From positions 1 through 64,000 of the forward strand of contig CAIYIS010000035.1 in the NCBI GenBank assembly GCA_903926385.1: 64,000 nucleotides of DNA. Reading direction: 5' to 3'. Both the position numbers and the translations under genes were made by a program. The number at the start of each line of letters is the position of its first letter. Position 1 is the first letter of the stretch. Shown here piece after piece: positions 6,001 through 53,867 of this stretch. The notes under the pieces were generated by a model, which saw nothing but the letters and a program-made list of their open reading frames with translations, was not told the DNA's origin and did not search any database. This DNA comes from an uncultured Bacteroidota bacterium. GTDB lineage: Bacteria > Bacteroidota > Bacteroidia > 2-12-FULL-35-15.

Positions 6001-6705
6001 ACCAGTAGTTGTATTTTGTAATGAAAGAGTAAAATTAGCTGCTGCACAAACCGGATTATTATTAACAATCGTATTTCCCGGTGCAGGCGTTCCGCTGCAA
6101 AGAGATAAAGCAGAAATACTGAAATCATCCACAGTTAAATACCAAGGTCCACTAGTAGGTACACATTTAATACCGAGATAATAACTTCCACTTGTTGCAG
6201 GAGAAAATGTTCCTGTTAGCTGTGCATAAGTTGAATTAATAGGTGAAGCAATTGTGGCTATTGTATTTGGTTGTAGAGCAACAGTAGTACCACTACCATA
6301 GGTTAATGATAAAGATGTCCATCCAGATAGACCATCAGTAACATACCATGTGCCAACTGAATAAGTAGTACCTGCAACGAGGTTAAATGGGCCAACGGCA
6401 TAAACTTGCGTAACAGTGCCGTATCTAAATGACATGAATCTAGTATCGGCACCATGACTAGCGCGATTGTAACTTCCTGGAGCAGCAATGTAAGTAGGTT
6501 GAAGTGTTGTAGTACCTGTTCGGGTCCAAGCTCCTCCTGCTACCGTAGGAAAACCATTGGCAGCCGCAATCCCGGCAAAACTCTCTGTGTAAGGTAGTGC
6601 TATCTGTGCATTCACATTCGTGGCTGTTAATCCTACTAGGAAAACAGCACACACCAACCACCGAAGAATACTTCGTGTTGGATTTTGGGTAATTGTTTTT
6701 GTCAT
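1..6705 (-). CDS. Giant secreted GEVED/Ig-like repeat protein, N-terminal part (runs off window)
   Basis: An open frame runs from the ATG at 6705-6703 to the window edge (2235 codons seen, no stop). The N-terminus MTKTITQNPTRSILRWLV, a hydrophobic core and a VNAQ cleavage site form a signal peptide. Two GEVED-type domains are visible: an Asp-rich YIDYNQNG segment then GETEDYVINI near residue 447, and WIDFNQSG then GETEDYKV near residue 705. Between and after them lie many Ig-like/PKD-like modules with TYYVRA-, TYTVTV- and YQWQSS-type strands, Cys pairs and Thr/Ser-rich linkers. This composition is typical of very large T9SS-exported surface or adhesin proteins of Bacteroidota; the sorting domain would lie beyond the left edge. 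Export is inferred from the signal peptide and architecture. A good promoter lies about 155 bp upstream. Confidence 0.85.
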   Translation of the reverse strand, partial: MTKTITQNPTRSILRWLVCAVFLVGLTATNVNAQIALPYTESFAGIAAANGFPTVAGGAWTRTGTTTLQPTYIAAPGSYNRASHGADTRFMSFRYGTVTQVYAVGPFNLVAGTTYSVGTWYVTDGLSGWTSLSLTYGSGTTVALQPNTIATIASPINSTYAQLTGTFSPATSGSYYLGIKCVPTSGPWYLTVDDFSISALSLCSGTPAPGNTIVNNNPVCAAANFTLSLQNTTTGSGVTYQWQSSTDNITWSNIAGATSSTRTGTQSVATYYRCAVTCSGNTGISTPLNVTMQTGTGCLVYCTSAATSTSDEDISNVTFGTLNNTSGCATLAPGPGSVVSMYSNYRSGVGAPAVPSVSQLQSVPFSVTQTTCGGSYANNIVIYIDYNQNGLFTDAGETAYSGASFTGNHTDAGNIVIPIGATVGQTVMRVVTTENGVTGPCTTYSWGETEDYVINIVATTGCSGTPAASTTVPSVNPACSGTNFTLSLGTSYTAAGLTYQWQSSADGFTYANITGATNGTAVVNQTAAAYYQCIVTCTSGGAFIISTPVYVTMNSFVNCYCQPTYTSGTSGSYYGVISNVTLNTLNHSPAALNAQPYYYSNPATGAATTSLVPGQTYSLSVSSGVYNGIGVWIDFNQSGSYDVNEFFNISGNNNSSGAAWSGTASVAVPMNAVAGLTGMRVSSAYYCCYPAALGASNACGAWTYGETEDYKVTLLPLPANPANPVEVGVPNCATGGNIAAVGSAPGGETWYWETSSTGTSTASPVSGNYSISINGTYYIRSQNNTYLNWSPGAGSITVTDFPSGPAAPSITTPGGNPGCTVNLVSSTAGSGTTNYWQGSSSSTLSTSLVADDGTTNTPYSVPSTGTYYVRARDNASSCWSTAGSIVATLTTVPPITVTASANPVCAGNPATLTAVTNVIGTGSKQIGSGVATTTGQPNPYYTTYWGNKNQYLILASELIAQGVAPGNITSMSLNVGTITAPPALTNFTISMGTTALAALPATFQTGLTQVYTNASYSIVANSLNTHTFSTAFNWDGVSNIIIETCFNNATWTGSTTISYSTTAFASAIYYYADAATVCSAPGAPTTSTNRPNLIFGCQTTVQGAGSYTWTWQPGNLSGNVVTVTPSAATTYTVTASGGVCDFSNTIAMGMSSVPSAPSATNQTQCGYGIPTASVVSTAGGSGSGQFNWYNQSTGGTLQQGPPSTLQTYYTNNFASGAGTGTLSGVAAIASGVCTLYPNTTSQQGGLTVPASGITTTLLQVDFDAATVGAAVSNMADGFSYNFANDADATITAVGQEQGSGTKLRISFDAYGTTGNNIQGIYLLYNQTAASYPATVGGAVLGYSSNSAWLNSGSQHYTVTVNASGQLTLVVGGTTIFNNVQLPAGYLSANKATWKHVIAGRTGGVSMSTAIDNLVIQQQLPGTGSTTYLTAIGATTTWYVSEKGTNGCPSPTTAVTETVTTPDAIQAVASTNAICGAGSVTLSFNQLSNTNGNVYSTSTWTAAPGTGSGITGSLAGGANPGQVTVTPTANGSYIYTVVANDAVAGCNASSTVTVGKGSNPTMTTVTATPPSTCTGGTTQLDAGTFVGGSLTTAMAGGNGASGNAFNITATNTVTLHYFSIYTTTTGTAEVWYKAGGFAGPTLSSSVGWTLAGSAAVAVGAPALVNVDANITIPAGQTYGIVVVSSGSVNYTNGTTFGTTWASDANITIQQGCGGAGTGGAFAFTNTPRCINGTVTYSYGDPNLVYSWNPSAGLSSSSIMNPVATVATTTTYTVQATNTAGCSSTGSVTVTTTPLTAGALTTGGATSCVGVQTVTAHPIAGGSPYTFVWTEDGNAFTGSTATITASAGTHTYACAISDACGSTASSSLSVTTNALATMSPSSVGLCAGNAATVTALPAGATSYSWTGGLGTAQTASVSTAGTYTVTVTQGTCVSTATATATVTSLPTITAGSNSPVCEASALNLTSTGVVTQPIVGNYSVSSIGYAPVTPTGATSAGPTGDDVVSGSVPIGFAFNYYGTSYSNLIISTNGFISFDLTSGAGCCAGQTIPSTTTPNSVVAINWCDLTASAGQIDYFNLSSPNRFVIRWTNEPTLSYTGTVSGEIILYQSGVIEIHNTSVTTTYPTTTQGIENSLGTLATPVSGRNATTWTATADAYRFTPPVATGTYAWSGPNTYSVQNPTIASALVTDGGNYNVTFTDPFGCTASTTVAAVVNPMPVGSATPQTICSGATSSVALNS

Positions 6706-7343: not shown

Positions 7344-7735
7344 TTCCGAGTTCGGGAATGAGGCAAATGAAGTCATTTGACACGTTCCCCAGCAGAACAA
7401 TGAGGCAAAAGAGTTCATTTGGCACATTCCCCAACTCGGGATAAGGGCAAATGAGTTCATTTGCCTCACTCCCAATCTCGGGATAAAGGTAAATGAGTTC
7501 ATTTGGCGCACTCCCAATCTTGGGATAAAGGCAAATGAATTCATTTGGCACATTCCCCAACTCAGGATAAAGGCAAATGAGTTCATTTGGCACATTCCCC
7601 AACTCAGGATAAAGGCAAATGAGTTCGTTTGGTTCATTCCGTTGCTGGGTAACATGTCAAATGAGTTCATTTGGCACATTCCCGAACTCGGGATAGAGGC
7701 AAATGACATTATTTACCACTATCCGATTCTCCGGA
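7344..7735. repeat. Phased dyad array A: nine 42-bp units with two alternating palindromes
   Basis: A dyad CAAATGA-nn-TCATTTG recurs at 7364, 7406, 7448, 7490, 7532, 7574, 7616, 7658 and 7700, exactly 42 bp apart with no indel; the last right arm is degenerate. The copy at 7532-7547 is fully self-complementary. Halfway between successive copies lies a second dyad of the form TCCCGA-nn-TCGGGA, clearest at 7680-7693 and 7344-7357, centred 21 bp from the first. The region is therefore about 19 dyads at 21-bp spacing with two alternating sequences. It lies between the 3' end of recX and the promoter of the giant secreted protein. Both minus-strand frames stay open through it, as expected when a 14-codon unit without stops is repeated; I do not regard it as coding. 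Confidence 0.9.
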
Positions 7736-8352
7736 AAACGAACAAAAGGTAATTATGGTTTTAACTTTTGGAAAGAAAAAGGAGAAAACCAATGGATGAA
7801 AGGTGAAGGAAGTAGTTCAGAACGGATGTAAAAGTAAGTTTTCGGAAAGGGGGAAAAAGAAATGGGGAAGACCATTTGCTAGTTGCCTGTTCCCACAAAC
7901 ATTCAACTATTGAACAACCGGCCTTGCCCCTTTTCTCATCAATCAAAATAACTATCAACTAAAATCTATTCAAAGAAAACTACATTATGGCAAATAATAC
8001 TTTTTCTGAAGAATAAAACACGAATGATTTTAGTATTAACTTTTTATTCGGGGTCAAAAGTAGAACAGGTTCAATTTTCAAACAAGAGCAAAAGTCAGTT
8101 TTAAAGTTGCTTTTCGGCAGGTTAAAAACTAACGCAAATCATGATTTGCTTAGATGCATCCAAAAACGGGGGATTTGAGGGCAGATAATTTTGCGATTTA
8201 AAGCATTTATCAATGTTCGAGTAAATCTATTTTATGTAAAATAATTCGATCAAGAAAGATGATGAGGAAGGACAAAAAGAATGAAATTAGTTAATCGTAA
8301 GATTAATATTCGATGTAAAAATAAAAGTTTTTGAGATTTTAAATAAAACAAA
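7736..8352. other. Gene-free interval between array A and recX
   Basis: AT-rich DNA of about 600 bp. A 65-codon open frame on the minus strand (7761-7958) has no recognisable features and no supporting context. I see no strong terminator for recX and no further repeat. Confidence 0.5.
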
Positions 8353-19306: not shown

Positions 19307-19374
19307 CACCTCATCCCATTTTCCAGCAATACTTATCACCTTTCATCTTATCTATATATAATGTATTTATTTTT

Positions 19375-19597
19375 GCTCCATCGGGGCTAACTGTTTGTAG
19401 ATATTTTTATCGTCAATGAATTTAAGTAATAACGGAGTTTAATTTTTGCCCCATCGGGGCTAACTGTTTGTAGATATTTTTATCGTCAATAAATTTAAGT
19501 AATAACGGAGTTTAATTTTTGCCCCATCGGGGCTAACTGTTTGTAGATATTATTAATGATAATAAAATTAAGCCCTGTAAGGGCGACCTGTCCTTTT
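19375..19597. repeat. REP-like palindromic repeat cluster, copy 1
   Basis: Three units begin at 19375, 19448 and 19521, exactly 73 bp apart. Each starts with a hairpin GCCCC-ATC-GGGGC (first copy degenerate) followed by TAACTGTTTGTAG. A different terminal hairpin, GCCCT-GTA-AGGGC then GACCTGTCCTTTT, closes the cluster at about 19572-19597. The same head-and-tail arrangement occurs at 21358-21506. This hairpin plus conserved flank resembles REP elements moved by RAYT (TnpA-REP) enzymes, but no such gene is in the window. Confidence 0.85.
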
Positions 19598-22050: not shown

Positions 22051-22428
22051 TAGCAAAATCACCAAACCTCCTAGCAAACTTCATCCGCCCCTTAGCAAAT
22101 CTGCTAAAACCCCGAGAAGATTTCATGCGCCTATCAGCAAAACTACTGAGACACTGAGCAAAGTTAACGAAACACATAGCAAAGTTAGCAAAATACATAA
22201 CACAATTAGCAAAACAAGTAACATAATTAACGAAACTCATAACACAACTAACAAAACACATAACACAGCAAACAAAACACATCAAACAGTTAGCAAACCG
22301 AATAGCACAATTAGCGAAACGAATAGCACAATTAGCAAAAAACACAGTACAATTAGCGAAACTCATAGCAGAGTAAGCAAATCGCATAACGCAATTACCA
22401 AAACACTTAGTACATTTAATAAATTAAA
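22051..22428. repeat. Phased array B: eighteen 21-bp units
   Basis: A T-A-(G/A)-C-A-(A/C)-A core recurs every 21 bp without indels at 22051, 22072, 22093, then (degenerate) 22114, 22135, 22156, and 22177, 22198, 22219, 22240, 22261, 22282, 22303, 22324, 22345, 22366, 22387 and 22408. The usual unit also contains a second AATTAGCAAAAC-like core, which places an A-tract once per 21 bp. The total span is 378 bp. Unlike the other arrays, I see no strong dyad in the unit. The minus strand is open for 134 codons with a seven-residue repeat (FANCAIR-like), a consequence of the 21-bp period. It ends 279 bp before the gyrB start. Confidence 0.88.
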
Positions 22429-27375: not shown

Positions 27376-30300
27376 CTACCTCACCAGCGTAACGTGTCCT
27401 ATGTATTTATGCTCCTGATGATGGATATCGACAAGAGTAACCACATAAACATATACGTCCTGCTGCACCTCAGCGCCTGCAAATGTTCCATCCCAATGGT
27501 CATTTATATCATAACAGTAAAAAATACGATTTCCCCAACGGTCGAATATATTCATATTAAAATCTAATATGCCCGTTCCTTTTCCAAAAAATTCATCATT
27601 ATCCCCATCACCGTTTGGTGTAAATGCATTTGGAATATAGAACGTACATTCCGGTTCTATTATCACACAAATCTCTGTTGTGTCTATACAATGTCCGTTA
27701 GAAACGGTAAGCAACACACAATAAGTTCCGATACGATAATAAGTATGCGAAGGATTTTGTGCAGTGCTAGTATTCGTACTCGATGAATACATATCTCCAA
27801 AATCCCAGTTCCATGACGTTGCTCCCAATGAGTGATCAGTAAATTGCACCACAGCATTCGATATTGTAGTAACAGCAGGTGCGGTAAACTCAGCATTAGG
27901 CACAGGATAAACAGTAACCATATTCGTATTTGTAATGGAAGCTACACATCCAAAATTGGAGGTATCAGATAAAGTTATTGAGTAAGTTCCTGCATTATTA
28001 TAACAGAACGTAGGACTCTGCTGATTGGATACGGCTCCTGCTCCACTTCCAAAATTCCATCCGTAACCGGTAATACTTCCTGATGAAATTGTACTTGTAT
28101 TGGTAAACGTAGCACAATATGGAGCACAACCCGAAACTGGCCCTGTGAACGAAGGAACCGGCAAAGGATTAATAGTTACAAGAGCACTTCCGCTAAATGT
28201 TCCCGTACAGTTTATATCCGAAATATTAGTTACTGTATAGGTTCCTACTCCCGGATTTACGATAGTATAAGGTGATGCTCCTACTGCTACTGTCACCGGT
28301 GTTGTTCCGTCTGTATATGTCATACTCCATGGTGGACTTCCCGTTAAAGTAATCACTACCGGCATGGTATTATTACCTGCACACACACTTCCTCCTCCAT
28401 TAACTGTAGCACTTGGCAACTGATTTACTGTAACGGTTGAGACTGCAGTATTCGAACAACCAAGCGATGTTCCGGTAACTGTATAAGAAGCATTTGCCAT
28501 TGGAGTTGCTGTAGCTGCACCTCCCACACCTCCGGTTGCACCAGCTGTCCATGTATATGTAGTAGCCCCTGCAGCCAGAAGATTTGCCGTTTGTCCTGCA
28601 CAAATGGTAGGAGAATTTACCGTCACCACCGGCACTGGATTAACAGTTATCGTTACTTGACTGGTAGATACCGGGCATGGAGGATTAGCTATTGACCATT
28701 GAAATACATTGGCCCCGATGGCAAGTCCTGTAACAGTAGAAGTAGGAGAAGTGGTATTAGTAATCGTTCCTGAACCACTAATTATACTCCACGTTCCGGT
28801 ACCAACCACAGCTGCATTTCCGGCAAGTGTTGTATTATCTACACATAACGACTGATTAGGTCCGGCCTGAGCCACCGTAGGAGTTGCCACTCCGTTTATG
28901 GTCACCTGACTGGTAGATGCAGGGCAAGGTGCATTCGAAATTGTCCATTCAAAAACGTTAGCTCCAACACCAAGTGCTGTTATAGTCGATGTTTCTGAAG
29001 CAGTATTGGTAATGGTACCACTTCCACTAAATACAGTCCATAATCCTGTTCCCACAGTCGGTAAATTTCCAGCAAGCGTTGCATTCGTTCCGCATAATGT
29101 TTGAGTCGGTCCGGCCACTGCCACTGTAGGTGGTGTTACCCCTGTTATGGTCACCTGGCTAGATGTACTCGGACAAATAGGATTTGCTATGGTCCATTCA
29201 AATACATTAGCTCCTGCTCCCAAAGCTGTAATTGCCGAAGTAGCAAGATTAGGACTGCTTATAGTTCCCGCCCCGCTGATTAATGTCCATGTACCTATTC
29301 CCACCAAGGCAGTATTTCCGGCAAGTGTTGCATTTGTACCACAAACCGTTTGATTTGGTCCAGATGATGCTACAGTCGGAATTCCAACTCCTGTAATGGT
29401 TACTTGACTAACGGATGCCGGACATGGTGCATTACTTATTGTCCATTGAAACACGTTTGCTCCCACTCCTAAAGCGGTTATTGTTGATGATTCTGAAGCT
29501 GTATTGGTAATAGTTCCTGTTCCGCTCACCACATTCCATACACCTGTTCCAACAGTTGGAATGTTTGCTGCAAACGTAGCATTCGTGCCACATACTGTTT
29601 GATTAGGTCCGGCTACAGCCACTGTAGGAACATCTACTGCAGTTATTGTAACCTGACTGGATGAAGGAGGACAAATCGGATTATCAATCGTCCATTGAAA
29701 CACATTAGCCCCGAAACCAAGACCCGTTACTGTTGAGGTAGGAGAATTAATATTGGTAATGGTTCCTGTTCCACTTATCAATGACCATGTACCTGTACCC
29801 ACAAGAGCTGTATTTCCTGCCAAAGTTGCATTTGTTCCACACACCGTTTGATTAGTGCCTGCGTTGGAAACAGTAGGAGGAGTAATTCCTGTTATTGTAA
29901 CCTGACTCGAAGAAACCGGACATGGTGCATTTGCTATAGTCCATGCAAATACATTAGCACCTGCTCCCAATGCGGTTACTGTGGTTGCTTCTGAATTCAG
30001 ATTGGTGAACGTACCGCTTCCACTTATTACACTCCATGTACCTACCCCTATTGTGGCAATATTACCTGCCAGGGTTGCATTAGTTCCGCATACCGTTTGA
30101 TTGGCTCCTGCCACCGAAACTGTAGGCACTGCACTCACATTTATTGTCACCTGACTTACAGATGGTGGACAATTTGCAACAGTAATTGTCCAGGTAAACA
30201 CATTGGCACCCACTCCAAGACCCGTAACTGTGGTATTTTCAAGGGCAGTATTAGTAATGGTTCCTGTTCCACTCACAAGTGTCCAAGTTCCAACTCCTAT

Positions 30301-33300
30301 AACAGCAGTATTTCCGGCTAATGTTGTATTATTTGCACAAATATTCTGGTTAGTACCTGCATTCGCTGGCGTCTGAGGAATCGCTCCTGTTATCGTAACC
30401 TGACTGGTGGTTGGAGGACAAGGTAAATCATCTACTTCCCACTGAAAAACATTTGGCCCCACACCTAAACCTGTAATAGTTGTGGTTGGAGAATTAGGTG
30501 AAGTTATAGTTCCCGCTCCGCTAATCAATGTCCATGTGCCCACTCCCACTGTTGCCGGAGTGGCTGCCATAGTAGCTGAGGTTCCGCAAATGGTTTGAGG
30601 AGCACCAGCAGCCGCAACTGTAGGCACACCCACACTTGTTATTGTTACTTGGTCTGTTGATGGTGGACAAGGTAAATTATCAATTTGCCATTGAAAAACA
30701 TTGGCACCTATACCAAGTGCAGAGATTCCGCTCGTTGGTGAATTTGGAGAAGTAATTGTTCCAGTACCGCTTATTAATATCCAAGTTCCTGTGCCTACTA
30801 GTGGAGTATTAGCCGCCATTGTTGCCGTTGTTCCGCACACCGTTTGATCGGCTCCTGCAGCTGCAACATCAGGAACCGGTACACTCGTAATCGTAACCTG
30901 ACTTGTGGTTGGCGGGCAAGGTAAGTTATCCACCTCCCATTGAAACACGTTGGCTCCTGCACCAAGTCCGGTTATTCCGCTTGTTGGTGAATTTGGAGAA
31001 GTAATAGTTCCGGTACCACTTATTAATGTCCACGTTCCTGTTCCTACCAATGCAGGTGTAGCTGCCATAGTTGCCGTAGTTCCGCAAACTGTTTGAGGAG
31101 GCCCTGCATTCGCTACAGTTGGTATTCCAACTCCAGTTATGGTTACCTGATCTGAAGAGGACGGACAAGGCGGATTGCTGATTGTCCATTGAAAAACATT
31201 AGGCCCTACACCAAGTCCTGTGATTCCCGAAGTAGCCGAAGCAGGACTTGTTATTGTTCCCGCCCCACTGATAATCGTCCATAATCCAGTTCCGGTTACT
31301 GGAGCGTTGCCTGCTAAACTTGTAGTTGGTCCGCAAACCGTAACATCAGGGCCAGCATTCGCTACATCCGGGACATTTATTCCTGTTATAGTTACCTGAC
31401 TGGTGGATGGAGGGCATGGAGGATTTGAAATGGTCCATTGAAAAACATTGGCTCCCAATCCTAAACCGGTTATTCCAGTTGTAGGCGAAGTTGGAGTAGT
31501 TATCACTCCTGTACCGCTTATCAAAGTCCATAACCCTGTCCCTATAACAGGATTATTTCCTGCCATAGTTGCTGTCGTTCCACAAACTGACTGTGGCGGG
31601 CCGGCTGATGCTACAGTCGGGCCGGCAACTCCGGTTATTATCACCGTATCTATTGAAGAAGGACAATTGACCAAACTAATCGTCCATACAAAAACGTTTG
31701 GACCAATTCCCAAATTGGTAATTCCTGATGTGGCCGAATGAATGGATGTTATAGTTCCCGACCCACTTGCAAGTGTCCAAGTTCCCAAACCTACAAGTGC
31801 AGGGTTACCAGCCAAAGTAACAAGAGGAACACAAACGGTCTGATCGGGTCCGGCATTGGCTACTGTGGGTGCGCTCACACTTGTAATTGTTACCTGACCA
31901 TTGGTTGGATTGCAAGGTGGATTTGTAACCGTCCATTGAAAAACATTGGCTCCCAAACCTAATCCGGTTACGGTAGTCACATTCGATGCAGGATTGGTTA
32001 TCACTCCCGAGCCACTTACCAAAGTCCATGTTCCGGTGCCATGCAGTGGAACAGTCGCTGCCATCGTGCAAGTTGTACCGCAAACAGTTTGCGGAGGCCC
32101 TGGTACCGCTGCTGAAGTTTGGGCTATTCTTGTAATGGTTACCTGACTGGTTGAAGGAGGGCATGGTGGATTAGTAATCGTCCACTGGAATACACTAACA
32201 CCTACTGGTAAAAGCGAAACGGCAGTTGTGGGTGATGAAGGATTACTGATTGTTCCACCTCCACTAATCAGAGTCCATGTTCCTGTACCAACAGTTGGCG
32301 TATTCGCAGCCATTGTAACGGTGACTACACAAGTTGTTTGATTCGGCCCTGCATTGGCAATAGAAGGTTGACTAATCCCATTAATCGTCACCTGACTAGT
32401 TGATGGAGGACAAGGTGGACTGGAAATAGTCCATTGAAAAACATTGGGACCAGTTGCCAAACCGGTTATTGTACTTGTTGGTGATGTAGGTGTGGTGATA
32501 GTACCCGAACCACTCACTAATGTCCATAATCCGGTTCCTATGACAGGAGTATTTGCCGCCATTGTTACTGAAGTTGCACAAACGGTTTGAGTAGGCCCAG
32601 CATTAGCCGTAGTAGGACCCGCCACAGTAGAAACAGTTACCTGACTTGTGGTTGGAGCACAAGGAGGATTGTCTATTTCCCACTGAAATACATTAGCACC
32701 AATAGATAAACCAGTGATTGTTGTGGTTGGTGAATTCGGATTTGTTATCGTTCCTGTTCCACTTATTAGTGTCCATGTTCCTGTTCCTATTACAGCCGCA
32801 TTTCCTGCCATGGTTGCTGTAGTCGAACATATATTTTGGTTAGGCCCTGCTGCTGCCACAGTTGGAGGCACTACAACTGTTATGGTCACCTGGCTGAATG
32901 ATATTGGGCAAGGAGGATTGCTTATAGTCCATTGAAAAACATTGGCTCCTACACCCAAAGCTGTTACCCCTGAGGATGGTGAGGATGGGTTTGTAATTGT
33001 ACCTGTTCCACTGATAAGTGTCCAAACACCAACTCCTACAACAGCCGTGTTCGCTGCTAATGTTGCGGTTGTTCCGCATACCGATTGATTTGGGCCTGCA
33101 TTCGAAACTGTTGATGTGGGTGCAGAAGTGATAGTAACCTGACTAAATGTAGTCGGGCAAGGAGCATTACTTACTGTCCATTCAAAAACATTGGCTCCTG
33201 CCCCTAGTCCGGTAATATCTGTTATTTCCGAATTGGGAGTCACTATGGTTCCTGTTCCGATTATTAAGGTCCATATTCCTGTGCCGGGTAAAGCAGTATT

Positions 33301-36300
33301 AGCTGCCATTGTGGTTAATGAACCGCATACAGTTTGGTCGGGTCCGGCTACAGCCACTGCAGGTGGGGTTACTCCTGTTATTGTTACCTGGCTGGAAGAT
33401 ACAGGACATGGAGGATTCGAGATGGTCCATTGAAAAACATTGGCACCGGCTCCGATACCGGTTATGGTTGTTGTTGGCGAATTGGATGTTGTTATTGTTC
33501 CCGAACCGCTTACTAATGTCCACACTCCGGTTCCCACCAAGGGAGCATTTCCGGCCATAGTGGCGGTTGTTCCACAAATTGTTTGATTCGGTCCAGCTAA
33601 TGCAACTGTTGGAGGATTTACAGGTGTAATTGTTACTTGACTTTGTGTTTGCGGACAAGGAGGACTAGTTATAGTCCATTGAAATACATTTGGTCCTGCA
33701 CCAAGTCCGGTAACACCCGAAGTTGGTGAGGAAGGATTGGTAATTGTTCCTGCTCCGCTTACCAATGTCCATGTTCCTGTTCCAAGTATGGCTGTATTAC
33801 CTGCCAAGGTGGCCGTATTTCCGCAAACATTTTGATTTGCTCCTGCATTGGCTACAGTTGGTGTTGGCGATTTGGTTATGGTAACCTGACTAGAAGATAC
33901 AGGGCAAGGAGGATTCGAAATGGTCCATTGAAATACATTGGCTCCTACCGGTAAACCCGTAACCGTAGAAGTTGCAGAATTTGGATTAGTTATTGTCCCT
34001 CCTCCGCTAAGCAAAACCCAAGTCCCTGTACCTATTGCGGGCACATTTCCGGCTAAAGTTGTACTATTGGCACACAGAGTCTGATTAGGCCCTGCATTGG
34101 CAATAGTTGGATTAGCCATTGCATTTATGGTTACCTGGTCTGTTGAAGAAGGACAAGGTGCATTCGAGATGGTCCATTGAAAAACATTTGGTCCGTTTCC
34201 AAGAGCTGTTAAACCTGATGTCGGTGAAGCTGAGTTGGTAATTGTACCTGTTCCGCTTACCAATGTCCACACACCTGTACCTACCAGTGCTGTATTTCCT
34301 GCCAAGGTGGCTGTATTACCACAAAAAGTTTGATCAGGTCCGGCTGCTGCTACAGTTGGAACAGCTACCCCTGTAATGGTTACCTGACTATTAGTAGACG
34401 GACAAGGAGGGTTGCTTATTGTCCATTGAAAAACATTGGGTCCTACTCCAAGTCCGGTGATGCCTGATGTTGGTGATGATGGAGTGGTGATGGTACCCGC
34501 ACCACTAACAAGAGTCCATACTCCCGTTCCTATTAATGCTGTATTTCCTGCTAGAGTGGCTGTGTTTCCGCATACCGTTTGATTAGGTCCGGCTGCTGCA
34601 ACGGTTGGTACAGTCACACCTGTAATGGTTACCTGGCTATTGGTAGAAGGACATGGTGCATTGCTTATAGTCCATTGAAAAACATTAGGCCCTACTCCAA
34701 GCCCGGTAACTCCGGATGTTGGAGAAGCTGGTGTTGTGATGGTTCCAGTGCCACTAACAAGAGTCCATACTCCTGTTCCTATTACTGCTGTATTTCCTGC
34801 TAAAGTTGCTGTTGTTCCACAAACAGTTTGATTGGGTCCGGCTGCTGCTACAGTTGGAACCGGAACACTTGTAATTGTTTGCTGACTCGAAGTTGTCGGG
34901 CAAGGCGCATCCGTAATAGTCCATTGAAAAACATTCGGTCCTGCAGCCAATCCGCTTACTGTTGTTCCTGGTGAGTTTGGATTCGCGATGGTTCCAGCTC
35001 CACTTACTACAGTCCAAATTCCAACACCAATTGAAACCGGATTTCCGGATAAATTAGTACTTGAACCACAAATATTTTGAGGACCTCCTGCTACTGCTAT
35101 AGTGGCATCCATCACTCTGGTGATAGTTACCTGACTGACTGAATTAGGGCAAGGCGGATTACTGATTATCCACTGATACATGCCGGAACCGACTCCAAGT
35201 CCAGTGACGGTTGACGTAGGTGAATTAGGGTTTGTTATTGTTCCGGTGCCGCTAAGCTGTACCCATGTTCCTGTACCAACTAATGGTGTATTTCCGGCTA
35301 AGGTAACAGTTGGTCCACATACTGTTTGATTGGGTCCGGCTGCAGATACGGTTGGATTGGCAACTCCTGTTATGGTTACCTGACTACTCGATGCAGGACA
35401 AGGAGGATTTGTGATTGTCCATTGAAAAACATTTGCTCCCACACCAAGTCCGGTAATTCCCGATGTTGGAGAAGAAGGTGTGGTGATGGTACCTGCACCA
35501 CTCACCAGTGTCCATATTCCTGTGCCCACAATAGCTGTATTTCCTGCCAAGGTTGCAGTTGTTCCACAAATTGTCTGAGCAGGCCCTGCGTTTGCCACAG
35601 TCGGATTAGCAACTCCTGTAATGGTGACCTGACTATTGGTTGCTGGGCAAGGAGGATCAGTAATCGTCCATTGAAACACATTAGCACCTGCTCCTAAAGC
35701 TGTAATACCTGATGTTGGAGAAGCCGGATTGGTAATGGTACCAGCCCCGCTCACAAGTGTCCATGCTCCGGTTCCCACTAAAGCGGTATTTCCGGCAAGC
35801 GTTGCCGCTGTTCCGCAAATGGTTTGATTAGCTCCGGCTGATGCTACTGTTGGTGTAATACCTGTTACTGTTACCGTGTTTGTTGCTACACACATATTGG
35901 CATCTGTTACAGTAACCGTATACGTGCCGGGTCCTAAAGCAGTGGCCGTTTGAGTAGATTGCCCTCCCGATGCCCATGAGTATGTATAAGGTCCGGCAAC
36001 ACCTATTGGCGTTGCTGTTGCTGTTCCACTATTTAAACCAGAACAAGATGCTGTACTTGCCATATTGGGCGGGCAACATGCAACCAGAGCATTAAAAGCA
36101 GTGGCCCCATCTGTAACACATCCTGCACTTGTCCAGGCAGCCGATTCTCCGTCTCCTGATGTATTAATATTTACCGCCAAACTCATACCGGGATTACACC
36201 CTGTTGTTACAGTTATATCCCAACAAAAGTCCCATTCAACTGGTAAAGGGTTTACATAACAATTGTCACAGGAAACGCCATCCCCAAAATTATTGCCGGG

Positions 36301-37191
36301 GTTACCATCCGTAACACAAACATAGTCTCCGAATATATCACAACATTGATATTCTCCATCAAAATAAAAACCAGCAGGCCATGATGTACCATTTGCTGAA
36401 CTAACAGTTCCTGCAGGATAATAAGACCAATTACCGCAAGCCGCAAGAGCTCCAACGCCCCAGTATGCAGGAGTATTCAACAATGGTGGAGGGGGAAAAG
36501 TTACCAAACTACCTAGATTCCATCCTGCTCCGAAAGTCATCTGAACTCCATGAAGCCAGTTATTTGATATTTGAGTAAACTGGTCAATGTGGTAACAGAA
36601 ATGAACGGTTTGTCCCGGCTGATAACTGCCGTTTACAGGTAAGGGAGTTATGGTGAGAGAGGATGCATTTAAACAGTTAGAACAATCCTGATAAGCATTT
36701 ACATTTAATGTAAACGTTCCCGTTTGTCCAGTGTTACCACTAATGAAAATGGTGTATTGATTTCCAGGAACCAATCCACTTAAAATGTTTAAGGTTGCTG
36801 TACCTCCTGCTCCAACAATACAGCCCATTCCAGACAAACTGGAACATACAGCACCACTGTATAAAGCAATATTAGGATTGGCAAAAGTAGCTCCGGTTAC
36901 ACTGACCACTACACCATAGCCATTTGAAGGTTGAGTAAATGTATACCATACACTATTAGCAGGCGATGCCATGCCACAACCGGTTAAGGTAGTATAAGGC
37001 GATTCGGGTGTAGCATTCACAAGGGTTCCCGCCACAGAGGTTGTGGCACCGTTTAATACACCAGTGCCGCAAGCACCCGGAGATGCCAAAGTGCCGAGGT
37101 TTTGAGCTCCCGAACAATTGTCGTTTGCAGGTTGTGCAAATGCCACTGCCGAGATAAAAATAAAATAAAATAACAGTAATCTTAACTTCAT
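27376..37191 (-). CDS. Giant T9SS type B adhesin-like protein with 29 tandem 83-residue repeats
   Basis: A 3271-residue protein. The signal peptide is MKLRLLLFYFIFISAVAFAQ. Residues about 22-160 resemble a pre-peptidase C-terminal-like domain (NDNCSGAQNLG, NSVWYTF). A Cys-rich region follows, with FGAGWNLGSLVTFPPPP and HFCYHIDQ. From about residue 440 to 2850 come 29 tandem repeats of about 83 residues (249 bp), with consensus PTVANAGPNQTVCGTTATLAG, then GTGTWTLVSG(T/A)GTIT, GVGANVFQWTI and PPCP-SQVTITG. These are PKD/Ig-like sandwiches, probably with one disulphide each. Two further Ig-like modules and two PKD domains (GWNFGSG, WNWDFGD) lead to the CHU_C gliding-motility-type domain (IPNAFTPNGDGDND, FDRWGN, KYIGHVTLVR). 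It should be exported by the T9SS and act as an adhesin or motility surface protein. It overlaps the small upstream gene by 4 bp. Confidence 0.92.
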   Translation of the reverse strand: MKLRLLLFYFIFISAVAFAQPANDNCSGAQNLGTLASPGACGTGVLNGATTSVAGTLVNATPESPYTTLTGCGMASPANSVWYTFTQPSNGYGVVVSVTGATFANPNIALYSGAVCSSLSGMGCIVGAGGTATLNILSGLVPGNQYTIFISGNTGQTGTFTLNVNAYQDCSNCLNASSLTITPLPVNGSYQPGQTVHFCYHIDQFTQISNNWLHGVQMTFGAGWNLGSLVTFPPPPLLNTPAYWGVGALAACGNWSYYPAGTVSSANGTSWPAGFYFDGEYQCCDIFGDYVCVTDGNPGNNFGDGVSCDNCYVNPLPVEWDFCWDITVTTGCNPGMSLAVNINTSGDGESAAWTSAGCVTDGATAFNALVACCPPNMASTASCSGLNSGTATATPIGVAGPYTYSWASGGQSTQTATALGPGTYTVTVTDANMCVATNTVTVTGITPTVASAGANQTICGTAATLAGNTALVGTGAWTLVSGAGTITNPASPTSGITALGAGANVFQWTITDPPCPATNSQVTITGVANPTVANAGPAQTICGTTATLAGNTAIVGTGIWTLVSGAGTITTPSSPTSGITGLGVGANVFQWTITNPPCPASSSQVTITGVANPTVSAAGPNQTVCGPTVTLAGNTPLVGTGTWVQLSGTGTITNPNSPTSTVTGLGVGSGMYQWIISNPPCPNSVSQVTITRVMDATIAVAGGPQNICGSSTNLSGNPVSIGVGIWTVVSGAGTIANPNSPGTTVSGLAAGPNVFQWTITDAPCPTTSSQQTITSVPVPTVAAAGPNQTVCGTTATLAGNTAVIGTGVWTLVSGTGTITTPASPTSGVTGLGVGPNVFQWTISNAPCPSTNSQVTITGVTVPTVAAAGPNQTVCGNTATLAGNTALIGTGVWTLVSGAGTITTPSSPTSGITGLGVGPNVFQWTISNPPCPSTNSQVTITGVAVPTVAAAGPDQTFCGNTATLAGNTALVGTGVWTLVSGTGTITNSASPTSGLTALGNGPNVFQWTISNAPCPSSTDQVTINAMANPTIANAGPNQTLCANSTTLAGNVPAIGTGTWVLLSGGGTITNPNSATSTVTGLPVGANVFQWTISNPPCPVSSSQVTITKSPTPTVANAGANQNVCGNTATLAGNTAILGTGTWTLVSGAGTITNPSSPTSGVTGLGAGPNVFQWTITSPPCPQTQSQVTITPVNPPTVALAGPNQTICGTTATMAGNAPLVGTGVWTLVSGSGTITTSNSPTTTITGIGAGANVFQWTISNPPCPVSSSQVTITGVTPPAVAVAGPDQTVCGSLTTMAANTALPGTGIWTLIIGTGTIVTPNSEITDITGLGAGANVFEWTVSNAPCPTTFSQVTITSAPTSTVSNAGPNQSVCGTTATLAANTAVVGVGVWTLISGTGTITNPSSPSSGVTALGVGANVFQWTISNPPCPISFSQVTITVVVPPTVAAAGPNQNICSTTATMAGNAAVIGTGTWTLISGTGTITNPNSPTTTITGLSIGANVFQWEIDNPPCAPTTSQVTVSTVAGPTTANAGPTQTVCATSVTMAANTPVIGTGLWTLVSGSGTITTPTSPTSTITGLATGPNVFQWTISSPPCPPSTSQVTINGISQPSIANAGPNQTTCVVTVTMAANTPTVGTGTWTLISGGGTISNPSSPTTAVSLLPVGVSVFQWTITNPPCPPSTSQVTITRIAQTSAAVPGPPQTVCGTTCTMAATVPLHGTGTWTLVSGSGVITNPASNVTTVTGLGLGANVFQWTVTNPPCNPTNGQVTITSVSAPTVANAGPDQTVCVPLVTLAGNPALVGLGTWTLASGSGTITSIHSATSGITNLGIGPNVFVWTISLVNCPSSIDTVIITGVAGPTVASAGPPQSVCGTTATMAGNNPVIGTGLWTLISGTGVITTPTSPTTGITGLGLGANVFQWTISNPPCPPSTSQVTITGINVPDVANAGPDVTVCGPTTSLAGNAPVTGTGLWTIISGAGTITSPASATSGITGLGVGPNVFQWTISNPPCPSSSDQVTITGVGIPTVANAGPPQTVCGTTATMAATPALVGTGTWTLISGTGTITSPNSPTSGITGLGAGANVFQWEVDNLPCPPTTSQVTITSVPVPDVAAAGADQTVCGTTATMAANTPLVGTGTWILISGTGTITSPNSPTSGISALGIGANVFQWQIDNLPCPPSTDQVTITSVGVPTVAAAGAPQTICGTSATMAATPATVGVGTWTLISGAGTITSPNSPTTTITGLGVGPNVFQWEVDDLPCPPTTSQVTITGAIPQTPANAGTNQNICANNTTLAGNTAVIGVGTWTLVSGTGTITNTALENTTVTGLGVGANVFTWTITVANCPPSVSQVTINVSAVPTVSVAGANQTVCGTNATLAGNIATIGVGTWSVISGSGTFTNLNSEATTVTALGAGANVFAWTIANAPCPVSSSQVTITGITPPTVSNAGTNQTVCGTNATLAGNTALVGTGTWSLISGTGTITNINSPTSTVTGLGFGANVFQWTIDNPICPPSSSQVTITAVDVPTVAVAGPNQTVCGTNATFAANIPTVGTGVWNVVSGTGTITNTASESSTITALGVGANVFQWTISNAPCPASVSQVTITGVGIPTVASSGPNQTVCGTNATLAGNTALVGIGTWTLISGAGTISSPNLATSAITALGAGANVFEWTIANPICPSTSSQVTITGVTPPTVAVAGPTQTLCGTNATLAGNLPTVGTGLWTVFSGSGTITNTASETSTITALGVGANVFEWTISNAPCPASTSQVTINGVATPTVAQAGPNQSLCVDNTTLAGNAAVVGTGTWSIISGSGTITNTTSPTSTVTGLAIGANVFQWSIANPPCPVSTSQVTITVNPVPVVTVNSPTICAGQTANLLAAGATTYTWTAGATGGVGGAATATPMANASYTVTGTSLGCSNTAVSTVTVNQLPSATVNGGGSVCAGNNTMPVVITLTGSPPWSMTYTDGTTPVTVAVGASPYTIVNPGVGTYTVTNISDINCTGTFSGSALVTINPLPVPSFTGPVSGCAPYCATFTNTSTISSGSITGYGWNFGSGAGAVSNQQSPTFCYNNAGTYSITLSDTSNFGCVASITNTNMVTVYPVPNAEFTAPAVTTISNAVVQFTDHSLGATSWNWDFGDMYSSSTNTSTAQNPSHTYYRIGTYCVLLTVSNGHCIDTTEICVIIEPECTFYIPNAFTPNGDGDNDEFFGKGTGILDFNMNIFDRWGNRIFYCYDINDHWDGTFAGAEVQQDVYVYVVTLVDIHHQEHKYIGHVTLVR
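28645..35870 (-). repeat. 29 tandem 249-bp coding repeats inside the giant adhesin gene
   Basis: About 7.2 kb of DNA repeats at 249 bp with almost no length change, each unit encoding the same PKD/Ig-like fold. Neighbouring copies (for example repeats 5 to 7 or 24 to 28) are more alike than distant ones, as expected from unequal crossing-over or gene conversion. Copy number could vary between strains and could be miscounted in short-read assemblies. Confidence 0.85.
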
Positions 37192-37373: not shown

Positions 37374-37699
37374 AGTTACTAATTAAAAAAAACTTGGTAA
37401 AATATTTTTCGTAAAAATATAACTTTTTATGGATAAAAAAAATTCATTTCGTCAAATATTACCATAATATCGTTCATTTTCATTTTGCTTTAATAAAACA
37501 CACTTCTTTAATTTCTTCCTATCTATAGGTCTTTCTTTTCAATATATATCATAAAATGAAAAAACGAAATTAATCACCCACCTACTTATAAGACGATAAA
37601 ATAATTCAAAAGGTTGCATGAGGATTGAGAATTTACAAAAAATGGAATAAAAGCTCTTACCCCAGCTGAAACAGGAGTTTAAAGTTTCAAGTTGGCTTA
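37374..37699. other. AT-rich upstream region of the small peptide/adhesin pair
   Basis: No gene seen. The region contains long A and T tracts, which may include the promoter for the minus-strand pair, but no TAnnTTTG box could be placed with confidence. Array D begins immediately beyond. Confidence 0.5.
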
Positions 37700-38051
37700 C
37701 TGGAAAAGTTTACAGTATATGGTTTCTTTTAAATTCGCTTATTGCAAAAGTTTGCAGTATATGGTTTCCTTTTAAACTGCTTACTGTAAAAGTTTGCAGT
37801 ATATGGTTTCCTTTTAAACTGCTTACTGTAAAAGTTTACAGTGTATGGTTTCCCTTTAAACTGCTTACTGTAAAAGTTTACAGTATAAAGTTTCCTTCTA
37901 AACCACCTATTGTAAAAGTTTACAGTATATGGTTTCCTTCTAAACTGCTTACTGTAAAAGTTTACAGTACATGCTTTCCTTCTAAACTACTTACTGTAAA
38001 AGTTTACAGTATATGGTTTCTTTTAAATCTGCTTATCGCAAAAATTTGCTG
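37700..38051. repeat. Phased dyad array D: nine 42-bp units
   Basis: The dyad CTGTAAA-AG-TTTACAG recurs at 37700, 37742, 37784, 37826, 37868, 37910, 37952, 37994 and 38036, exactly 42 bp apart with no indel; end copies are degenerate. Copies at 37742 and 37784 share a T-to-G change in the right arm (TTTGCAG), and in 37742 this is matched in the left arm (TTGCAAA). Centred 21 bp from each is a weaker dyad GTTT-N6-AAAC in GGTTTCCTTTTAAACTGC. The architecture is thus the same as in array A (two alternating dyads every 21 bp, nine 42-bp units) with entirely different sequence. It lies 327 bp upstream of the small peptide/adhesin start and 139 bp from the tRNA. Confidence 0.92.
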
Positions 38052-38065
38052 TAAATGGTTACAAT

Positions 38066-38189: not shown

Positions 38190-38279
38190 GGAGAGGTGTC
38201 AGAGTGGTCGAATGAGCAAGCCTGGAAAGTTTGTATACTCGCAAGGGTATCGCGGGTTCGAATCCCGCCCTCTCCGCCA
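38190..38279 (+). tRNA. tRNA-Ser (anticodon GGA)
   Basis: The sequence folds as a class II tRNA. The acceptor stem GGAGAGG pairs with CCTCTCC, and the D arm is GAGTGGTCGAATGAGC. The anticodon stem CAAGC/GTTTG encloses the loop CTGGAAA with anticodon GGA. The long variable arm is TACTC-GCAA-GGGTA, the T arm is GCGGG-TTCGAAT-CCCGC, and discriminator G is followed by an encoded CCA. It reads UCC and UCU codons. No other tRNA is adjacent. Confidence 0.96.
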
Positions 38280-38365: not shown

Positions 38366-40255
38366 ATGAAAACCAAACTATCAAACGACAATCTTCTTCT
38401 TCTGGCCATCCTGTTTATAGCAGCTGTACTTCGTTTCTGGAATTATACCAATATGCCTTACATGCACGATGAACTCAGTGCATTATCCCGAACTCATTTC
38501 AATTCATTATCCGAACTTATTACCAATGGAGCTCGCACAGACGGGCACCCCATAGGTGTTCAGGTTTTTCTGTATTACTGGACCATGTTGTTTGGCGAAA
38601 ACGAAATGATAGTAAAGCTGCCTTTTATTTTACTCGGATTGGCAAGCATTTATATAGCTTACCAAATAGCTGCCCGCTGGTTTAATGTTTCGGTTGCCCT
38701 TGTAGTGGCTTCGTTTATGGCCGTTATGCAATACATGGTTACTTACAGCGAACTTGCCCGACCTTACATAAGTGGTGTTTTCTTTACCCTGATGATGGTA
38801 TGGTGCTGGAGCAATTATTTGTTTAACGAAGATGGTAAACAAAGAAAATGGCTGATAAAATACATTGTATTTGCTGTTCTCTCGTGTTACGACCATCACT
38901 TCGCCACATTGTTTGCTTTATTGGTTGGGCTTTCCGGTTTTTTCTTTATCACCAAAATCAATTGGAAAGGTTATCTCATTGCATTGGCTGGCATTCTTGT
39001 TCTGTACATTCCCCATATCAGCATTACCCTGTATCAGTTCAGCAAAGGAGGATTGGGAGGTAATGACGGATGGCTTGGCAAACCCGACCCTAATTGGTTA
39101 CTCATGTATTTTCAGTATGCTTTGCATTATTCCTATGTAATGTACGGTCTGGTGGTGGTACTTCTGTTGTTCAGTTTAATAAAATACAGCAACCGAATAA
39201 AAGAAACACAAAAATTCAGAATGGTTTCGGCCCTGTGGTTTCTGTTGGTATTTTTTATTGAATATTATTATTCATTAAAAGTAAATCCAATTATTCAGTT
39301 CTCCACCATGATTTTTGTGTTCCCGTTTCTCCTCATGTTTGTGTTTTCTCTCCTGTCCGAACTCAACTTTTATTTCAAATCGGTTATTGTTTCGCTTATT
39401 TTAATTGTCGGAATCATCACGCTGAGTGTAACCCGCAAACACTTTCAGTTGTTTTACCACCAGCCTTATCAGGAAATGGTAACCAATACCTATAAAACGC
39501 TTGACGAAATAGGCGGTGAATCGAAAGCCACCATCGAATTGCTTATTCCTCCAACCTACAAGGAACATTATTTTAAAAAATTCGGACGCGAGTTTAAGTG
39601 TATTTACTACAACCCATTCGACACAAAGAAAGACACCAAAGCTTTCCGCGAATTTGTAAATCATCTCACCACCGACTATTTTATTTTTGGTAACCCTCCT
39701 TTGGAATACATTCAAATTATTAAAGAAAAATACCCTTATATAATGAAGAAAGAAGAAGGGTTTACCTATTCGTTTTACTGTTTCTCCAAACAAAAACCAG
39801 CTTCAGAAATAAAAGAAGACATCATCATTTCGAAACCGATAGACCTCACAGCAGGCACCTACAAGCTTGATTCTACTATGGAATACGGCCCTGCATTTGC
39901 AGATAAATTAAAAAACTTAACCAAAGGAAGACATAATATCCTTACCATTTCCGCATCTGTCTATTCTCCCGACTCGCTCGATAACCCCACCATAGTGGCC
40001 GATATACAAGAAGATGACAATTCGTTATACTGGAATGGTTCGGATTATCAGAATTACAGAAACAATACGACAGGAGCTAACACCGTATATTTCTCCAAAC
40101 TGATGACCGACTTTAACCTGAAAGGCTATCCTCGCCCTCAAATTAAAGTGTACATGTGGAACAGAGGGAAAAAGAATATCACTGTGGAAAATGTGAAACT
40201 GGAAGTCATCGAGAGCAATCCGGTGATTTATGGTTTGTTCGAACCACTGGATTAA
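38366..40255 (+). CDS. GT39/ArnT-like membrane glycosyltransferase
   Basis: A 629-residue integral membrane protein. The first helix is LLLLAILFIAAVLRFW, and the first periplasmic loop has the acidic pair of the GT-C fold (NMPYMHDELSALSR, Asp-Glu near residue 34), followed by GHPIG. About ten more hydrophobic helices occupy residues 60-355. The soluble C-terminal part (residues about 370-629) starts TRKHFQLFYHQPYQEM and ends in a beta-rich region. The family transfers sugars from polyprenyl-phosphate donors to protein or lipid. The acceptor here is unknown; glycosylation of surface proteins is a possibility given the many exported proteins nearby, but that is speculation. It stands alone between the tRNA and pgk. 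Confidence 0.75.
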   Translation: MKTKLSNDNLLLLAILFIAAVLRFWNYTNMPYMHDELSALSRTHFNSLSELITNGARTDGHPIGVQVFLYYWTMLFGENEMIVKLPFILLGLASIYIAYQIAARWFNVSVALVVASFMAVMQYMVTYSELARPYISGVFFTLMMVWCWSNYLFNEDGKQRKWLIKYIVFAVLSCYDHHFATLFALLVGLSGFFFITKINWKGYLIALAGILVLYIPHISITLYQFSKGGLGGNDGWLGKPDPNWLLMYFQYALHYSYVMYGLVVVLLLFSLIKYSNRIKETQKFRMVSALWFLLVFFIEYYYSLKVNPIIQFSTMIFVFPFLLMFVFSLLSELNFYFKSVIVSLILIVGIITLSVTRKHFQLFYHQPYQEMVTNTYKTLDEIGGESKATIELLIPPTYKEHYFKKFGREFKCIYYNPFDTKKDTKAFREFVNHLTTDYFIFGNPPLEYIQIIKEKYPYIMKKEEGFTYSFYCFSKQKPASEIKEDIIISKPIDLTAGTYKLDSTMEYGPAFADKLKNLTKGRHNILTISASVYSPDSLDNPTIVADIQEDDNSLYWNGSDYQNYRNNTTGANTVYFSKLMTDFNLKGYPRPQIKVYMWNRGKKNITVENVKLEVIESNPVIYGLFEPLD

Positions 40256-45577: not shown

Positions 45578-45942
45578 TTCCTTCCTTTACAGCAAAAATT
45601 ATTCCTTTTTACCGAACTTCAAAGGTAGGTATTCTTATCACTGTATATTAATCTGTGAAAAATAAATTTTGTTAAAATGAGATGAGAGATAGGATGGGTG
45701 GAAAAGAAAATTATGAAACCGAAATTTCATCCCTGAACAAAAGTGCTTTTACCTTAACATTAGTCTCCATTTCTCTTTTTTGAGAATATAAATCGAGGCA
45801 GAAGGAGAATTGCCTTATTCAGAAACAAGCATTTTATCATTATGACATTCCAAGTTTTGTTCAAGCGATGGCTTCTTTTGTTTGCCTCAAGTCTTCCTGT
45901 TTTGACAGAAAATAAGTGCTTACATGTCAAAAACCACCATTT
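45578..45942. other. Gene-free interval upstream of the DUF4175 gene
   Basis: I see no convincing gene. A 72-codon minus-strand frame (45760-45978) runs into array C and has no supporting features. AT-rich; the DUF4175 promoter is presumably here but was not placed. Confidence 0.45.
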
Positions 45943-46129
45943 GTTAAAGAGATTCATTCTCTTGTTAAAATTACTCAACAGTTTTACAAGAGATTCTATC
46001 TTGCGTTAAAGAGAATCGTCCTTTTGTTAAAGAGATTCATTCTCTTGTTAAAGAGCTGAAGTTTTTGCACGAGATATTCAATCTTGCGTTAAAGACATTC
46101 AATGTCTCGTTAAAGAGATTCCATCTCTT
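45943..46129. repeat. Phased dyad array C: nine roughly 21-bp hairpin units
   Basis: GTTAAAGAGATTC-like units start at 45943, 45964, 45984, 46005, 46026, 46047, 46067, 46088 and 46109. Spacing is 21 bp except for two 20-bp units. Nearly every unit holds its own dyad, and the arms change together: AAGAGA...TCTCTT (45947-45963), CAAGA...TCTTG (about 45987-46004), GACATT-C-AATGTC (46094-46106). The last unit makes a perfect 11+11 dyad GTTAAAGAGAT-TCC-ATCTCTTTAAC (46109-46133). Paired changes suggest the symmetry, not the sequence, is maintained. It ends 315 bp before the carboxypeptidase start. Confidence 0.85.
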
Positions 46130-53583: not shown

Positions 53584-53867
53584 ACGAAGCTATTTTTCCG
53601 CTTCATGTCGTTTTTTATCTAGGCAATAGCGTTTATCATTTCCGCTTTATCGTTTTTCATTTCCGCGATAGCGTTTCTGATTTCCGCGATAACGATTTTC
53701 ATTTTCGCTATAGCGTTTTTCATTTTCTCAATAACGTTTTTTGTTTTCGCATCATCGTTTTTCATTTCCGCTTTAGCGTTTTTCATTTTCTCAATAACGT
53801 TTTTTGTTTTCGCATCATCGTTTTTCATTTCCGCTTTAGCGTTTTTGATTTCCGTGATAGCGGAGAG
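53584..53867. repeat. Phased array E: about thirteen 21-bp units
   Basis: Units ATAGCGTTTTTCATTTCCGCT-like in sequence start at 53605, 53626, 53647, 53668, 53689, 53710, 53731, 53752, 53773, 53794, 53815, 53836 and 53857, exactly 21 bp apart; a weaker unit begins at 53584. The unit junctions are short dyads, best at 53706-53715 (CGCTATAGCG), with paired variants CGCGATAGCG and CGCTTTAGCG. A 63-bp superrepeat (53752-53814 and 53815 onward) shows local duplication. The minus strand is open for 69 codons with seven-residue KNAIAEM-type repeats, expected for a 21-bp period. Confidence 0.88.

Follow-up and report, generated by a model that had tools for sequence, protein, structure and literature searches.

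In plasmid iterons and centromere arrays, repeats that each span about two or four helical turns, and in many cases contain a dyad, stand head to tail beside the gene for a partner protein. In F-plasmid sopC, each of the 43-bp repeats contains a short-armed dyad. REP/BIME sequences, which occur with RAYT transposases, are dispersed intergenic dyad repeats; to our knowledge, 21-bp phasing is not one of their features. Phased cooperative multi-site operators, as generally understood, place dyad sites at whole-turn spacing upstream of a gene. Borg tandem repeats form many unrelated, fast-evolving and frequently intergenic arrays over one genome; their unit lengths vary (e.g. 18, 20, 21 and 36 nt), and perfect units are a criterion for them (PMC9879509).

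The array considered here, array D, belongs to a chromosomal class whose mode of action may partly resemble that of phased operators, iterons and centromere arrays, while differing from each. Where an iteron or centromere system has a single array and one sequence per replicon, this genome has about 250 chromosomal arrays with a separate sequence for each cluster, and the orphan genes beside them lack recognised Rep or ParB domains. As compared to phased operators, there is no known regulator, the sequence varies from array to array, and each array holds far more sites. Unlike REP/BIME elements, the arrays do not correlate with Y1 transposases. Unlike Borg repeats, they have periods fixed to multiples of 21, units that are 50-90% alike, many dyads, and a pairing with particular genes; the quantised 21n periods and imperfect units do not fit tandem repeats of the Borg type (compared with PMC9879509). 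A literature search found no published description of such arrays, although most subscription papers fell outside its scope, making this weak evidence of novelty.

Array D and its surroundings

Array D occupies positions 37695-38060 of the window, which is the entire 64,000-nt stretch of DNA analysed. It was delimited by TRF, cell-by-cell dyad analysis and symmetry tests and, like the other arrays, is listed without a strand. TRF reports a period of 42, 8.7 copies, 87% matches, 1% indels and a score of 511. Each of the nine 42-bp units combines a strong dyad cell of 7-2-7 geometry (9-2-9 in the consensus) with a weak GTTT-N6-AAAC dyad cell, the two centres being 21 bp apart. This is the array as the preliminary description had it, with nine strong dyads alternating with a weak one. 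When the array is cut into 21-bp cells, nine strong-dyad cells appear between 37696 and 38032, one per 42 bp, with the consensus TACTGTAAA-AG-TTTACAGTA, and the intervening cells of most units contain GTTT-N6-AAAC. Neighbouring 21-bp halves are only 18% identical, so the 42-bp period is genuine and does not reflect two similar 21-mers. The strong dyad exceeds that of shuffled units (p 0.005). The weak dyad is not significant in array D by itself (rank p 0.086), reaching significance across the 18 true 42-bp arrays analysed below. A CRISPR array is ruled out, as there are no unique spacers and the units are contiguous and alike, with 84% identity at lag 42.

The second strong-dyad cell (37738-37758) carries a change at 37742 that is matched in both arms, TTGCAAA/TTTGCAG, and that had been taken as a sign of maintained symmetry. 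The matched change is indeed present and occurs a second time in the 38032 cell, whereas that at 37780 is altered in one arm only, and several further units have one-sided breaks. In total, two compensated cells stand against nine one-sided cells (z = 1.0, not significant). The arm-to-arm covariation check suggested in the preliminary description, when run on array D, therefore leaves maintained symmetry unsupported, and covariation as proof of selection is rejected for array D and for most other arrays.

The strong half-unit, TACTGTAAAAGTTTACAGTA (37696-37716 and the eight later strong-dyad cells), matches the form CTG-N10-CAG of the E. coli SOS box. As this form is absent from the other arrays, the likeness is probably a coincidence.

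On one side, array D is 130 bp from a tRNA-Ser gene (GGA; 38190-38279, + strand; ARAGORN and Rfam), the only match of an Rfam scan at the site. This is followed by the gene for a 629-aa PMT_2-domain membrane protein (38366-40255, + strand; Pfam PMT_2, E 1.2e-10; orthologues), a conserved neighbour. On the other side is a giant gene encoding a 3271-aa repeat protein (27376-37191, - strand; an open reading frame with 249-bp internal repeats), the start of which is 490 bp from the array. This giant gene and a second one at 1-6705 (- strand), adjoining arrays D and A respectively, form a sequence cluster with 17 further genes that have upstream arrays; the clustering probably reflects common repeat or sorting domains.

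The window contains four more arrays. Array A (7403-7760) has about 8.5 units of 42 bp, with a 7-2-7 dyad, CAAATGA-GT-TCATTTG, and TCCC-N6-GGGA located 21 bp away. Arrays of 21-bp period are found at 22157-22419 (TRF; dyad not significant) and at 45940-46129, where the units are mirror-armed (e.g. AAGAGA-TTCAT-TCTCTT), and an array of 21/63-bp period is found at 53609-53862 (TRF; dyad not significant). A 73-bp direct repeat at 19369-19555 (2.6 copies, 97% alike) does not obey the 21-bp rule.

A genome-wide class of 21-bp periods

The agreement between arrays A and D had been judged too close for chance. This is borne out, though not as a special pairing of the two: both are members of a class that extends across the source genome (G000), whose draft assembly comprises 85 contigs totalling 4.27 Mb. 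Noncoding self-matches in this genome fall at lags of 21, 42, 63, 84, 105 and 126 bp and at little else. A survey of 1.14 Mb contains 66 arrays, 63 of them outside long reading frames (simple open-reading-frame calls), and 122 period-21n windows. Extrapolation gives about 250 arrays per genome, the counts covering about 27% of it as contig starts, which may be richer in arrays, and some whole contigs. Arrays are 105 to 840 bp long, with 50-90% likeness between units. Given this range of lengths, the unit number of nine that the preliminary description saw in both arrays is uninformative. The match between A and D was also to be considered coincidental if other arrays showed a broad spread of unit lengths and dyad geometries; the lengths do not spread, as the lags are all 21n, but the dyad geometry does, with gaps ranging from 0 to 12.

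In a congener with about 75% protein identity (G014), 0.5 Mb contains 31 arrays of period 21 or 42, a density like that of the source genome, and few of these match the source-genome arrays in sequence. Across about 500 kb from eleven congeners without the orphan gene family described below, just two period-21n windows are present, both inside reading frames.

Periods that are exact multiples of two turns argue for a DNA-level constraint, and multiples of 21 without classes at 31/32 or 52/53 point to whole helical turns: at 10.5 bp per turn, no whole number of bases smaller than 21 makes up whole turns. The whole-turn site spacing of phased multi-site operators is found here both in the 21n periods and in the exact 21-bp distance to a second dyad.

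When arrays are compared with their column-permuted versions, dyads that recur every 21 bp reach significance (p <= 0.05) in 27 of the 63 source-genome arrays and in 12 of the 31 from G014. Dyad gaps vary widely beyond the true 42-bp subset. Within that subset (18 arrays from two species, three of them from the family of array A and one other a relative of D), a second symmetry centre is enriched at exactly 21 bp from the first relative to other offsets (Fisher p 7e-9). Averaging 16 of the true 42-bp arrays, which are largely unrelated, leaves the innermost pair unpaired (0.17) and the arms at distance 2-8 paired at about 0.8, followed by a linker near background (0.32-0.44). Beyond the linker, paired positions of 0.5-0.66 (null 0.25) match a dyad that is centred at 21 bp and has a gap near 6, after which pairing returns to background. 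The combination common to A and D, a 7-2-7 dyad with a weak dyad 21 bp away, is accordingly the usual average layout of true 42-bp arrays.

Sequence clusters of two to four members, in both orientations, take in 38 of the 66 arrays. Array D is related to an array on contig C15 (72%) and to short copies, of two units each, on C42 and C36, and array A has two related arrays. These relationships indicate that arrays are copied within the genome and diverge. A search with the array D sequence in 30 relatives, phages and viral contigs returned no matches beyond its own genome. At orthologous one-sided flanks, arrays are seldom shared; synteny is mostly inside operons, and pairwise orthologous intergenic regions are too short for array comparison.

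A long dispersed family built on CGATGATAGGAAA (L042 11753-12593, L032 686-1057 and L030 112-224) reaches 840 bp and often lies near contig ends, which suggests that assemblies break in longer arrays. A 51-bp repeat at a contig start (L034 1-764), present in fifteen copies, appears by eye to be a collagen-like coding repeat.

Orphan genes downstream of the arrays

A gene of about 230 codons recurs in the array flanks. Its ~230-aa product matches nothing in Pfam or NCBIfam and nothing informative in PHROGs, it has no recognised DNA-binding domain, and single-sequence structure prediction gave a pLDDT of 33, which is not usable. The family has a patchy distribution, with 22 of the 295 Bacteroidia genomes sampled having it, often as many copies, and none was found in plasmids, phages or viral sequences. 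A ParB/SopB centromere is ruled out by the lack of a ParB-type domain in the orphan proteins (Pfam, NCBIfam, PHROGs) and in the 629-aa neighbour (Pfam). An iteron or plasmid origin is likewise ruled out: no initiator gene is adjacent, array D being flanked by the giant repeat-protein gene, tRNA-Ser and the PMT_2 protein, and the orphan family has no Pfam match.

The position of the arrays relative to this family is strict. The first six family hits in the surveyed sequence all adjoin an array, and loci from six genomes (G000, G004, G013, G014, G021 and G027) all have a 21-bp array upstream; the G011 locus is truncated by the end of its contig. In a profile search over seven genomes including CANJYB, an array (z 8.3 or more) lies within 800 bp upstream of 24 of 25 family genes, which share ancestry and do not amount to 25 independent events, and downstream of none. 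Among 611 other genes, the background is 6.7% upstream and 3.8% downstream. The first few members were found via array flanks and are biased towards arrays; the later ones came from a whole-genome protein search and are not. The association also holds in G021 and G027, which belong to other bacterial families and in which random samples (40 and 60 kb) contain zero period-21 windows at the same threshold.

The distance between array end and start codon is 54-390 bp, and in many family members an A-rich leader with a AAATATCAAT-like motif can be seen by eye in between. Three more orphan groups have upstream arrays, at 3/3, 3/3 and about 8/12 genes; some proteins of the last group have a C-terminal fn3 domain (27.0 bits, cut-off 25).

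The upstream placement of a phased operator is seen here at the class level. For array D itself, such a position can be assigned only through the orthologous sites in relatives, located by the tRNA-Ser and 629-aa genes. In CANJYB, the site holds an array of TGTGGAA-N3-TTCCACA type and an intact orphan-family gene on the array side away from the tRNA, the side occupied by the giant gene in the source genome. In G014, an array of CCCTT-N4-AAGGG type precedes a 33-codon N-terminal remnant of an orphan-family gene (82% identity, E 2e-13). In G013, the array extends to the contig end. The array sequences differ in every genome compared. In the source genome, no remnant of the orphan gene was found between 37100 and 38200; of the pair, only the array is present. 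The simplest reading of these sites is an ancestral array-gene module whose gene decayed in G014 and is gone in G000, with gene loss being favoured over gain. Array D, which now has a giant surface-type gene on one side and tRNA-Ser on the other, may be a relic, or the giant gene may have co-opted it.

Possible roles of the arrays

In the best-supported reading, held tentatively at a probability of roughly 0.4, array D is an orphaned upstream element, helically phased and rich in dyads, that belonged to a fast-evolving array-gene module and served it as an operator or a nucleoprotein scaffold. In this genus and in some other families of the class, fast-evolving orphan genes of about 200-330 codons almost always have an array of this kind as their upstream partner. 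Each 21-bp step is exactly two turns at 10.5 bp per turn, and in about 40% of arrays each 21-bp cell presents a dyad roughly 16 bp wide. A putative dimeric DNA-binding protein, or protein family, could then occupy one site per two turns, all on one face, and its cooperative assembly would form the operator or scaffold controlling the adjacent gene. Such an assembly would hold only phase and symmetry, leaving each array to drift as a unit, which would explain fast sequence turnover with period and symmetry kept. At the D site, the partner gene would have been lost and the array left behind. Several observations weigh against a phased operator: the orphan proteins show no recognised DNA-binding domain, arm covariation is weak, the D site of the source genome has yielded no gene remnant that would give the direction of change, more than half of the arrays lack a significant dyad, some lie between convergent genes (about 13 of the 82 with both neighbours known), the main orphan family is absent beside most arrays (87), and array and protein similarity show no overall correlation (Mantel r 0.05).

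Alternatively, the arrays could be a mutational or selfish satellite that spreads and grows through slippage, through recombination or through an unknown enzyme working in 21-bp steps, with dyads as a by-product and orphan genes as tolerant neighbours. Multi-member clusters in both orientations (38/66 arrays), the short two-unit copies of D and the arrays unshared at most orthologous flanks are all consistent with this. It appears somewhat improbable given the strict upstream placement at orphan genes, retained across bacterial families, and the second dyad at exactly 21 bp; moreover, we know of no slippage mechanism that yields only multiples of 21. The dyads and dispersed copies also recall a REP/RAYT-type element made by a Y1 (IS200-like) transposase, and one array (L025) abuts a Y1-like open reading frame. 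This origin is largely refuted and retains very little probability, as the transposase does not track the repeats: PF01797 is found in 28 of 31 genomes, the array-rich source genome has just two weak Y1 matches, array-less genomes have as many or more, and G027, with arrays at its orphan gene, has zero.

The distance from array end to start codon (54-390 bp) and the common A-rich leader would also suit a transcribed 5' leader in which the units form a row of hairpins, serving the downstream gene as an attenuator, a sponge or a stability element. The dyads could supply 6-8 bp stems, and the non-pairing cells of array D favour G-T over A-C by 11 to 4. The G-T lean is rejected as a sign of RNA pairing, however, since it is inconsistent among arrays and tracks base composition (r 0.36). 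Hairpins do not account for exact multiples of 21, the 2-base gaps of many arrays are tight for RNA loops, and arrays occur between convergent genes too; an RNA-level role is therefore unlikely. A further possibility is DNA curvature, in which in-phase repeats sum a bend regardless of sequence, for nucleoid architecture or promoter geometry. Here, 21 being the smallest whole-turn number of bases and the period being constant while sequences differ both fit, whereas the dyads, the layout of a 7-2-7 dyad with a second dyad, and the link to one gene class are left unexplained, making curvature a distinctly unlikely account.

Returning to the phased upstream element, a broader proposal is possible though doubtful: that the arrays and their genes represent a new genetic module, whose element is recognised by phase and mirror symmetry instead of a fixed sequence, which is paired with a large set of fast-evolving orphan proteins, has its own sequence in each array-gene pair, and is multiplied many times per genome in some Bacteroidia. 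If true, 21-bp phase and dyads alone would flag genes invisible to sequence-family models, so that orphan gene modules of environmental bacteria could be found and studied by this route. It would also be a natural case of helical phase kept while sequence varies, in which the natural variation among arrays could serve to test whether phased sites act through assembly on one face.

Tight co-evolution of protein and array is rejected, given the lack of overall correlation, though array sharing exceeds the null in 6 of the 9 closest protein pairs. Orphan genes of three species (L175, L170 and L027) have GTACC/GGTAC-type upstream arrays in common, yet the arrays of L169 and L047, the nearest to L027 by protein, are more diverged. 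Judged from these sequences, array and protein appear to diverge at different rates. At another pair of loci, a 528-bp duplicate (L040 1489-2012 and L130 4157-4684; 97% identity) spans an array and the start of an orphan gene, and in the L130 copy the gene match ends after 17 codons.
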